NCBI GenBank assembly: GCA_009841255.1
Contig: VXMD01000026.1
Location: 153,787-217,786, forward strand
From: Candidatus Poribacteria bacterium
GTDB taxonomy: Bacteria; Poribacteria; WGA-4E; WGA-3G
Direction: 5' to 3'
DNA: 64,000 bases
In this document: piece after piece, positions 3,943-7,147 of the stretch
Layout: the number at the start of each line of letters is the position of its first letter
Position numbering within the stretch: the stretch's first letter is position 1
Program-made: the position numbers and the translations under genes
Notes under the pieces: model-generated
What the model saw: the letters and a program-made list of their open reading frames with translations, nothing else
Told to the model about the DNA's origin: nothing
Databases searched by the model: none

Positions 3943-4761
3943 TTATGCCAGAATACGCTCCATACGCTCGCGAATCCACGCCTTGTGCTCAGAGTGCGTG
4001 TGGATGTAGAAGGTGCCATTCTGGATAGCATTATAGACATGCTCTGCCACTTCCGCGGGGGACAATCCCGCCTCCATCTCGGCGCGGGCGTTTCGTGAAC
4101 CGCCGATAACGAGTTCTTGTAGATGCTTTTTCTCTGCTGGATTTTGTAATGCAACCGGACGGTTGCGAGCTGCGTCCAGGATCCCTGTGCGCACCCATCC
4201 GGGACACAGCACATGCACCTGGATATTAGCCTCTTTCTGTGTCAATTCAGCGGCGAGGGTCTCTGAAAGCACGACGACACCGTGCTTGCTCACCTTATAG
4301 ATGCCTTCGCCACTGCCGCCCACCAGACCTAAGATAGAAGCCGTGTTCACAATATGACATTCGTCCCCTTGTGCAAGCATACGGGGGACGAATGCTCGGA
4401 TGCCATGGATAACGCCCCACAAGTTAACACCTAACACCCACTCCCAGTCGGCAAGGGTATGCTCCCAGACAGGACGGCTACAGACGACCCCCGCATTATT
4501 GCAGAGAATATGCACCGCACCAAAAACGTCTAACGTCCGCTCAGCAAGATTTTCAATCTCTGTTGCGTTTGAGACATCCGTCCTGACGGTAAGGATCTGC
4601 GCCCCTTTAGCCTGTAGGTCCGCTTTAAGTTGAGCTAACGGCTTCTCTTCAATGTCGGCGAGGACGACTTTCATACCCTCCGCGGCGAACCGTTCTGCAA
4701 GTCCTCGTCCAATACCGTTCGCCGCACCCGTAATAACAGCAACCTTTTGCATGACGTTCAA
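3943..4761 (-). CDS. SDR family NAD(P)-dependent oxidoreductase
   Basis: Short-chain dehydrogenase/reductase of 272 residues. Cofactor motif TGAANGIG lies near residue 11, an acidic Asp after the second strand (VLADIEE) favours NAD, NNAG is near residue 90, and the catalytic Ser (NTASILG) and Tyr-Lys (YKVSK) are present, so all active-site residues are intact. The C-terminal region is longer than in minimal SDRs. The substrate is unknown. It stands alone on the minus strand; upstream lies repeat R1a and then the DUF169 gene. Confidence 0.9.
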   Translation of the reverse strand: MNVMQKVAVITGAANGIGRGLAERFAAEGMKVVLADIEEKPLAQLKADLQAKGAQILTVRTDVSNATEIENLAERTLDVFGAVHILCNNAGVVCSRPVWEHTLADWEWVLGVNLWGVIHGIRAFVPRMLAQGDECHIVNTASILGLVGGSGEGIYKVSKHGVVVLSETLAAELTQKEANIQVHVLCPGWVRTGILDAARNRPVALQNPAEKKHLQELVIGGSRNARAEMEAGLSPAEVAEHVYNAIQNGTFYIHTHSEHKAWIRERMERILA

Positions 4762-4787: not shown

Positions 4788-4876
4788 GTAGCCCGTAACG
4801 TAGTGGAGGGCGGTTTTAAGAAACGCGCGCAATCGTCTTAACTCACGCTGTTCCTCCGAAAGGTAAGTTTAAAAGA
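4788..4876 (+). repeat. Dispersed repeat R1, copy a
   Basis: Begins GTAGCCCGTAACGTAGTGGA and ends with a CCGAAAGGTAAGTTTAAAA version of the family end. The last 34 bases lie inside the 3' end of the DUF169 coding region, so the repeat contributes that protein's final residues or has replaced its original end. Confidence 0.7.
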
Positions 4877-5547
4877 CGTTGCTGATGGTATTCCTCTAAC
4901 GCTTGATTCGCATTCACAATCGTTTCCAACTTTTCAACGAGCGCGTCGATGTGTGTGCCGGGGAAAGCGAAATAGAAGTCATCGTCAGAGAGCGCCGTAT
5001 AGACGCGGTTGCCGATACATCCCAAACTACTGACGCTCCGTCCGCCTTGTATGACGGCAGGAATAGCGGCACACGTCGGGCGTCCCATAACTCCATTTTC
5101 ATTTCCAATCCCCGCAGCGGTCGCGGCTTCCGCTAAGAGCATCATCTGTTTCGGTGTACCCGAAATGATGACGACATCCGGCGTGCCTATCGCATCGGAT
5201 AGGGGGGCATAGACTGCATTTTTGAACGGGGTTTCGCGTGTTGGGATACCCGGGACTTCTTCCATAGTGATGTAGCCGAGTTCCCCCATCAGTCCGAGCG
5301 TGTTTTCGAGTTCCTTCATCTGGGCATCTGGTAACGCAACGTTATGTGTGTAGCATCCTATCGGGCAGTTGTAATGGTCGGACGCTTCGGTATAGAAGGT
5401 TTTGCCTTCCGCGGCGCGTCGCCAATAGGTGCAACCGGAGGCTTCGACCTTTTCGACACGGGAAACGTCCTCTGGTTGTGCATCGTGAAATGTTACCGCG
5501 ACAGGGGTAGTTTCCAGATTGAGTAGTTCTTGTAATTGTTCTGACAT
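4843..5547 (-). CDS. DUF169 family protein
   Basis: A soluble protein of 234 residues. The conserved features of DUF169 are seen: an N-terminal LETTPVAVTF-like start, cysteines in ASGCTYWRRA and NCPIGCYTHN, the later GRPTCAAIP and a glycine/cysteine segment SSLGCIGNR. The biochemical role of the family is not established; the conserved cysteines suggest a metal or cofactor site. The start at 5547 is preceded by an AAGGA about 11 bases upstream that is part of an R1 repeat, and a second R1 copy in the opposite orientation overlaps its 3' end. It lies between the SDR and the radical SAM gene but is spaced as a separate transcription unit. Confidence 0.8.
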   Translation of the reverse strand: MSEQLQELLNLETTPVAVTFHDAQPEDVSRVEKVEASGCTYWRRAAEGKTFYTEASDHYNCPIGCYTHNVALPDAQMKELENTLGLMGELGYITMEEVPGIPTRETPFKNAVYAPLSDAIGTPDVVIISGTPKQMMLLAEAATAAGIGNENGVMGRPTCAAIPAVIQGGRSVSSLGCIGNRVYTALSDDDFYFAFPGTHIDALVEKLETIVNANQALEEYHQQRLLNLPFGGTA

Positions 5548-5660: not shown

Positions 5661-5711
5661 ACACATTTTGGCTAATACAATATTGTGACATTCATTGCTA
5701 CGAAGCACAAG

Positions 5712-5732
5712 CCCCACGCTTTAGCGTGTGGG
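5712..5732. repeat. Hairpin downstream of the radical SAM gene
   Basis: CCCACGCT and AGCGTGTGGG form a strong stem with a very short loop. It could end the minus-strand radical SAM transcript, although no T-run follows. Similar hairpins occur at ends of IS200/IS605 elements, but no transposase or guide-like sequence is here. Confidence 0.4.
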
Positions 5733-5743
5733 TGCCTTGACTC

Positions 5744-7147
5744 CTAAACGTGTATTGGGGCGAACTGCCCATCAGTAGGTTCCGCTCAGCAGAACCACGC
5801 TTCGGTGAGCCGTGGTGCCGGTAGATGTGCTTCTTTCCTCTGCTTCGGTGGAGGGTGTCCGTGCATATCTGCAGCGAGTGTCCAGATCCGATAAAAGGTT
5901 TCCAGTGCATCCACACCGGCGCGCGCGTCGTTTTCAACGAGGGCGTTAACCGTTTTATGGAGTTCGTCCATTCGTGCATCGGGATGCACCCACGTATAAC
6001 TGAAGGAGGCTTCGTCAAGTACCAGTGAAAGTGCTTTCGTTTCGGGACGGTTGAGTAGATAGGATCCGGGCGGGATTAGCAACCGAACGGCGTACTGCAC
6101 CGGGTCAACGTGATACACAAGACCGTGCGTCTCAATAAACTGAAGGAGGTCGAGATAGTCGTCCAAGGTCGTCCACGGCGTGAACGGCACCCATGTGGGA
6201 CGCAAGGCGATTCCAGTTCCATGAACGATATCAAGTGCGTCCGCTACATCGGCGCGTGTGTGATGCTTTTCCAAAATCGTCAGTACCTGTTCGTTCAGCG
6301 TTTCGACGGCAGAGATGACGAACCGACATCCGAGTTGCGCGAATTCTCGGAAGTGTTCTCTATTTTTCAGGATGTGCTCAATCTTGGTGGTGAAGTCGAA
6401 GGTGAGGCTTGGGAAAGACTCATGCATTGCCCGGAGGATGCGGAGTCCGTGCATCGGACCGTTGAGAAAATCTGGGTCGCCGAACGTAATATGTGTCGCA
6501 CCTTCCACGACCTGTTCCCCTATTTCGGCGAGGACGGTGTCGCGCTGCACAGCGAAAAACTTACCGTTATAGACTGGGGGGATGGGGCAGTGTGTGCAGA
6601 GATGCTTGCACCCGTGCGTCGTTTCCGTATAGCCGACGGTTCGCACCTCATCTTTGTCCTCAAATTGGGCGTACGTCTCCAGTGGTGGTAATTCCGCAAG
6701 GAAATCGGATTCCTGGACCTCGGATTGTTCTTCCTTCGCGAGGGATTCCGCCAACGCGACAAGTTGCGTTGAATCTGTACCTGCGATACAAAAATCGACA
6801 CCGTGTGAAAGCAGATAGTCGGTGTTGAGCGTTGCGTAAAGCCCGTACATGCATATTTTATAGGATGTTCCCTGCTTGAGTTGACGGATACGATCAAGCA
6901 GATGAACCCCCAGTCGCAAAGCGGTGTGCATCGGGACGGATATACCAATGAAGCGGGCGCGCGCAATCTTTTCAACGTCCGCGGGTTCGACTGCAATATC
7001 AATCGCATCGGGCGCGAATCCTGCGGTTTCAAGAGCGCGCAGTGGACGGGTGAGTCCGATCGGTCGGTGCCCAAGTTCGTAGCAAGAGATCAAGAGAACT
7101 GCGCCAGGGGCACGTATCGCTGAGGTGATTTGCGCCTGCATTTCCAT
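5744..7147 (-). CDS. B12-binding/radical SAM protein with CUAEP tail; probable selenoprotein with in-frame UGA
   Basis: Radical SAM enzyme with an N-terminal B12-binding-like Rossmann domain (about 1-140) and the 4Fe-4S motif CKHLCTHC at C180/C184/C187. Conventional reading stops at a UGA (5786-5788) directly after LTEAWFC. Read as selenocysteine, the frame continues Sec-AEPTDGQFAPIHV to a TAG at 5744-5746, giving 467 residues. From memory, a radical SAM family is defined by a CUAEP or CCAEP tail after an EPWF-like motif, and this sequence matches it exactly. A small hairpin follows the UGA where a bacterial SECIS would lie. The arsinothricin enzyme ArsL is, as I recall, a relative; the reaction here is unknown. 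Selenocysteine machinery would have to be encoded elsewhere in the genome. Confidence 0.8.
5762..5782 (-). promoter_or_regulatory. Candidate bacterial SECIS-like hairpin after the UGA codon
   Basis: Starting four bases after the UGA on the minus strand, GAAC pairs with GTTC around a 13-nt segment in which CT can pair with GG, leaving a small apical loop that contains G. Position and size are compatible with a bacterial SECIS element, but the stem is short and no folding was run. Confidence 0.4.

Follow-up and report, generated by a model that had tools for sequence, protein, structure and literature searches.

The locus described here raises the question of whether an in-frame UGA close to the end of a radical SAM gene terminates translation or is read as selenocysteine (Sec). 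The gene is encoded by the minus strand of a 64,000-nucleotide stretch of contig VXMD01000026.1 (assembly GCA_009841255.1, Candidatus Poribacteria bacterium), which was analysed as a whole and is named the window in the following. The reading frame starts with the ATG at position 7147 and proceeds to ...LTEAWFC, which is followed by the UGA at 5788-5786 and the codons GCG GAA CCT ACT GAT GGG CAG TTC GCC CCA ATA CAC GTT, until it closes with a TAG at 5746-5744. If the UGA is decoded, the tail of the protein is CUAEPTDGQFAPIHV and its length is 467 residues; standard gene calling yields 453 residues, and the 14 residues lost are U454 and the 13 that follow. A preceding sequence-only reading had described the UGA after LTEAWFC, the in-frame tail, the TAG, and a truncation by 14 residues: The coordinates and the tail proved correct when the sequence was read again, and the truncation is borne out by the two lengths. 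Table 1 compiles the features of the locus.

Table 1. Features of the radical SAM locus in window coordinates, with the evidence for each assignment.
Feature	Position	Strand	Evidence
Predicted CUAEP-tail radical SAM selenoprotein gene	5744..7147	-	467 aa with Sec454; NF040546, Pfam, AlphaFold2
In-frame UGA, predicted selenocysteine codon (residue 454)	5786..5788	-	TGA/Cys exchange in relatives; Sec machinery
Post-Sec tail AEPTDGQFAPIHV, lost in standard gene calling	5747..5785	-	AEP kept in 79/80 relatives
Core GGGC(AGUUC)GCCC of the putative bacterial SECIS hairpin	5758..5770	-	Covariation, confinement to TGA genes, codon control
DUF169 (PF02596) protein, probable operon partner	4843..5547	-	Pfam 4.9e-31
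Short-chain dehydrogenase, downstream	3943..4761	-	Neighbour cluster 3; adh_short by Pfam on cluster representative

The NCBIfam profile NF040546 ('CUAEP/CCAEP-tail radical SAM (seleno)protein', curated cut-off 500 bits) was matched by the window protein with 606.9 bits over profile positions 1-467 of 468. A radical SAM family named for such a tail had been invoked in the sequence-only reading; it does exist, and the window protein exceeds its curated cut-off with an alignment that extends through the tail. The full-length match, the CUAEP tail, and the occurrence of Sec or Cys variants are common to the family and the window gene, and no substantive difference separates them. The gene is a member of an already named family, and the pairing with an ATP-grasp ligase presented below is an addition to a family name that denotes no function. 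The name is found on public records, as for Thermomicrobium roseum: On its plasmid NC_011961.1 (L127:7340-7480), the CUAEP/CCAEP gene TRD_RS12835 is annotated as ending at the UGA; AEPLEDP... continues in frame beyond this codon, which indicates that the public record is likewise truncated. Our literature search, which was partial in coverage, found no paper on the CUAEP/CCAEP family or NF040546.

Pfam assigned a Radical_SAM domain (1.2e-12) to the window protein and, slightly under the cut-off, an N-terminal B12-binding-like domain (2.2e-06). The radical SAM motif CX3CX2C is constituted by C180, C184, and C187, all of which are invariant in alignment A1; in alignment A5, C180 and C184 are invariant and C187 occurs in at least 90% of the sequences. 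An AlphaFold2 model based on 52 sequences reached a pLDDT of 89 and a pTM of 0.88, with averages of 76-80 for the tail blocks. The solved folds nearest to this model are those of AprD4, OxsB, and TsrM, radical SAM enzymes with a B12 domain; their sequence identity, however, is as low as about 14-17%, and cobalamin binding is for the window protein only predicted.

The codon at the Sec site was compared in 80 relatives from many phyla, which were fetched by means of the patterns WFCCAEP and LISCYELG and thus constitute a biased, non-random sample: It is TGA in 59, TGT in 11, and TGC in 10 cases, and the AEP tail is retained in all relatives except one (L120, SEP). Two HMM searches, of a Poribacteria set and an Acidobacteriota set, are free of this bias. 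Among the 85 genomes of the Poribacteria set, all 48 unbroken copies above the cut-off (47 genomes, that of the window included) contain exactly one stop, which is TGA, and each tail examined reads C-U-A-E-P-T; for this reason, a chance UGA is excluded. Given the number of these copies and genomes, the UGA cannot stem from faulty sequencing or from one isolated nonsense mutation. One further Poribacteria copy (G019:C189:2254-3703) is broken by a frame break and a TAA. In Acidobacteriota, the gene was detected in 50 of 297 genomes; most copies contain one TGA, a minority none. Two of the Acidobacteriota copies (G418:C65:5803-7251 and G386:C93:35354-36724) contain one TGA and one TAG, due to decay or sequence error. 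Copies of the Cys form stem chiefly from Nitrospirota, and in a quick tree, about four switches from Sec to Cys or back are needed. That close homologues might end at the same Cys and lack the AEP, as had been considered in the sequence-only reading, is refuted, since close homologues retain it.

By sequence, the window protein falls within Candidatus Poribacteria, with 86-87% identity to Poribacteria assemblies. Following a proposal made together with the initial claim, the source genome was searched for selA, selB, selC, and selD, and all were found: SelA with 595.8 bits, SelB with 353.2 bits and an adjoining tRNA-Sec with 78.1 bits, and SelD with 361 bits, the last itself containing one TGA. 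The machinery gives no refutation of the recoding. In phyla other than Poribacteria, SelA was found in 16 of 19 genomes possessing the TGA form versus 2 of 21 possessing the Cys form (Fisher 2.8e-6); the assemblies of the three TGA genomes in which it is missing are small (2.3-2.9 Mb) and possibly incomplete. Cys codons replace the UGA in lineages that mostly lack SelA, in agreement with the initial claim.

The small hairpin 3' of the UGA, which had also been pointed out beforehand, is present at 5770-5758 and is conserved by covariation in the relatives. Its core (GGGC-AGUUC-GCCC) comprises just 4 bp, and its loop lies about 20 nt past the UGA. For six pairs following the UGA, 81.3% of the cells are paired versus 69.8% in shuffles; the covariation value is 0.371 versus 0.157 after shuffling, and five of the six pairs vary on both sides. 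Of 57 distinct TGA genes, 56 form the four inner pairs, as opposed to 0 of 21 Cys genes, a comparison which is partly confounded with phylogeny; CAGUU is invariant across the TGA genes and is found in six of the 21 Cys genes. When synonymous codons were redrawn according to each gene's own usage (1000 draws), the hairpin occurred in 9.9 of the 57 genes, with a maximum of 19; therefore, it is not explained by the protein sequence alone. Rfam gave no matches in the whole window at the gathering threshold; around the UGA and at E <= 10, it gave chance-level matches only and no known SECIS. In these patterns, the hairpin shows the behaviour expected of a bacterial SECIS element.

We consider it very nearly certain, on the basis of sequence comparison, that the window gene is a genuine CUAEP/CCAEP-tail radical SAM selenoprotein gene whose UGA is recoded as Sec; this confidence covers the recoding and the family claim, the chemistry lies outside. 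The probable selenoprotein of the sequence-only reading is hence supported by Sec machinery, the exchange of Cys and TGA, and the SECIS-like hairpin. An ordinary stop, which would make Cys453 the end of the enzyme and the AEP tail chance or dead sequence, agrees with standard gene calling and with the annotation of the T. roseum record, both of which terminate at this codon; it is extremely improbable, since 47 genomes of the phylum, as well as other phyla, have kept the tail, this single site holds either TGA or a Cys codon, and only TGA genes possess the hairpin. It is equally hard to believe that the UGA is decoded as Trp, Cys or Arg through a near-cognate tRNA, or as an ordinary amino acid through a code change: Read-through alone would leave the identity of the residue unspecified, but related genomes use TGA for regular termination (it ends, for example, the ATP-grasp genes of L137 and L143), Cys is the only exchange partner at the site, the TGA form goes along with SelA, and the bSECIS-like hairpin is present.

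For the predicted Sec-containing enzyme, the genomic context offers hints at its role. In 80 loci, the co-directional neighbours common to several phyla are a DUF169 protein, an NfuA-like scaffold protein, and an ATP-grasp ligase; the window holds only the DUF169 gene adjacent to the radical SAM gene. A DUF169 homologue is located near the radical SAM gene on the same strand at 46 of the 80 loci (Poribacteria, Nitrospirota, Planctomycetota), and the DUF169 gene is probably the operon partner of the window gene. Its product contains four invariant cysteines (C39, C61, C159, C177) in alignment A8, and Foldseek returned no PDB structure of matching fold at E <= 0.001. The neighbouring dehydrogenase belongs to a cluster of 34 Poribacteria members and one from Tectomicrobia, which is essentially restricted to Poribacteria. 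In Ignavibacteria, the radical SAM gene is situated among consecutive Fe-S assembly genes of the SUF type.

The ATP-grasp partner is a member of the L-amino acid ligase family: It consists of the domains ATP-grasp_4 and LAL_C2 and matches PDB entry 3vot with 7.5e-60; no NCBIfam equivalog scored above its cut-off. These two domains are shared with BL00235 (3vot) and BacD. In the source genome, the orthologue is found at C31:158375-159622 and is unlinked to the radical SAM gene. If fragments are counted, 49 of the 85 Poribacteria genomes possess both genes, one only the radical SAM gene, five only the ligase gene, and 30 neither; Fisher's test, uncorrected for phylogeny, gave 1.1e-16 overall and 5.6e-9 in the family, and about 4e-4 within each of two genera. 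Among the 297 Acidobacteriota genomes, the respective numbers are 49, one (a fragment), four, and 243 (p 4e-50, uncorrected for phylogeny), and the two genes are at most 3 kb apart in 32 of the 49 two-gene genomes. In other phyla, 36 of 40 genomes with the radical SAM gene also encode the ligase, the four exceptions being Planctomycetota. The pairing holds inside individual genera as well as in different phyla, and the adjacency of the two genes lends it support; at the level of gene content, CUAEP radical SAM enzyme and ATP-grasp ligase are shown to be an almost obligate pair. As far as our partial literature search goes, this co-inheritance appears to be unreported. In one Poribacteria genome, the ATP-grasp gene is reduced to the first 33 and the last 25 residues (G067:C17:246298-246456) and the radical SAM gene is also absent, an apparent joint loss. 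The genes flanking the ATP-grasp gene in the gene listings of two Poribacteria loci (L136, L138) suggested no further pathway gene.

An invariant Cys follows an IGGx motif of the partner ligase, whereas 3vot possesses neither this Cys nor a TGA at this site. In three Poribacteria, namely G070 (L141), G080 (L142), and G078 (L143), the codon of this Cys is an in-frame TGA; the other ligase matches listed contain no internal stop. The genomes G070, G078, and G080 correspond to the assemblies JAJDUH, JAPPNJ, and OX638316; they originate from separate projects and OX638316 is a complete chromosome, which argues against an assembly error. SelA and SelD are present in all three. Downstream of the TGA, dN/dS is 0.06 for G070-G080 (dS 0.56), 0.075 for G080-G078, and 0.12 for G070-G078; the region is under purifying selection in these genomes. 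The TGA-bearing ligases are nearer to one another than to the Cys copies and consequently trace back, probably, to a single event that was kept over time. A hairpin is strong in two of the three TGA copies, with a loop fairly near the UGA, and weaker look-alikes exist in some Cys relatives; it is at most suggestive of a bSECIS. The ATP-grasp ligase of these three genomes is accordingly presented as a candidate for a second selenoprotein. Selenoprotein reviews and a paper search, with partial coverage of the literature, contained no mention of an ATP-grasp or ligase selenoprotein. If true, this would be one of the rare cases in which Sec occupies a conserved position in a ligase instead of an obvious redox enzyme.

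The named family nearest to the window protein, apart from its own, is ArsL (NF040542), for which it scored 312.3 bits, below the cut-off of 450. ArsL, an enzyme of arsinothricin biosynthesis with an RCCLKC tail (PMC8552651), has the CX3CX2C motif and a C-terminal vicinal Cys pair in common with the CUAEP enzyme; the alignment shows 35-37% identity over most of the protein and places the vicinal CC of ArsL in the Cys-Sec columns. In contrast, ArsL does not possess the C-terminal extension of about 60 residues and the AEP tail, and RCCLKC is absent from the window protein. The arsQML neighbourhood of ArsL was not seen at the CUAEP loci examined: Neither arsM nor arsQ is among the neighbours identified there, part of which were scanned. 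The likeness supports ArsL-like chemistry; an arsenic substrate or the same SAM cleavage is unproven by it.

In our reading, SelB and Sec-tRNA(Sec), guided by the hairpin at 5770-5758, recode the UGA and thereby provide a C-terminal Cys-Sec-Ala-Glu-Pro arm. For the chemistry, we tentatively propose the following scheme, which as a whole is rather less likely than not. The radical SAM enzyme would use SAM and a [4Fe-4S] cluster to generate a radical and, similar to ArsL, produce an unusual amino acid, while the Cys-Sec pair could serve at the active site as a holder of a soft electrophilic atom or as a redox arm. The ATP-grasp enzyme would then couple this amino acid to a partner amino acid, and the DUF169 and NfuA-like proteins may be cluster or metal helpers. 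That the Cys-Sec tail has an active role in catalysis, as the sequence-only reading had it, we infer.

A C-terminal vicinal Cys-Sec resembles redox arms like the C terminus of thioredoxin reductase. Based on this similarity, the pair might reduce or regenerate the enzyme or its cluster, with a substrate free of metalloid; genes for NfuA-like, SufB/D, class-V aminotransferase, and NifU_N proteins, which adjoin the radical SAM gene in Ignavibacteria and others, would fit such a function. However, no reductase recurs as a partner in the neighbourhoods across phyla and the amino-acid ligase points toward product assembly, so that we regard a redox arm of this kind as possible, if somewhat unlikely. 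Alternatively, vicinal Cys/Sec pairs bind soft metalloids, and Cys-Sec could be the arsenic ligand of an enzyme that transfers the 3-amino-3-carboxypropyl group of SAM to As(III), the product being ligated into an arsenic-containing dipeptide. ArsL, the nearest named relative, is predicted to catalyze this transfer (PMC8552651), and an Alicyclobacillus plasmid combines an ArsL-type radical SAM gene with ATP-grasp, MFS, and putative arsM genes; but the score of 312 versus the ArsL cut-off of 450, the missing RCCLKC tail, and the lack of ars genes adjoining the CUAEP genes in the neighbourhoods examined make an arsenic enzyme quite improbable. A still wider, speculative extension of our scheme, to which we attribute little likelihood, is that Cys/Sec occupies the key sites of both enzymes of a two-enzyme pathway because its intermediate contains a soft atom (arsenic or selenium); the product would then be a new metalloid-containing amino-acid conjugate of many uncultured phyla, and the ligase an undescribed selenoprotein family.

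The window gene itself is a well-supported, ordinary addition to its family, and its value lies in the correction of an automatic truncation; its source is a sponge-associated bacterium which, by our assignment, reads a stop signal as selenocysteine. What lifts the finding above a routine annotation fix is the ligase, with its pairing and its candidate Sec. A radical SAM family without a function in the sources found is tied to one amino-acid ligase in two deeply sampled phyla and in single genomes of several others; this pairing leads to a concrete product hypothesis and makes a two-gene system available for expression and assays.

Some minor observations were made at related loci. On plasmid pAACI01 of Alicyclobacillus acidocaldarius (L128), a radical SAM gene with an RCCLKC tail is accompanied by ATP-grasp, MFS, and putative arsM genes, which makes a parallel layout of radical SAM enzyme and ligase. 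One tblastn match of the DUF169 partner (L066:11723-12424) crosses a TGA, which is possibly merely the natural end of the gene. Directly 3' of the radical SAM gene, the window contains at 5705-5728 a further hairpin, GCTAAAGCG...GGGGCTTG, with a weak likeness to HEARO RNA (E 1.6, below threshold); its core has two further copies in the genome, and the hairpin is possibly the remnant of a mobile element.
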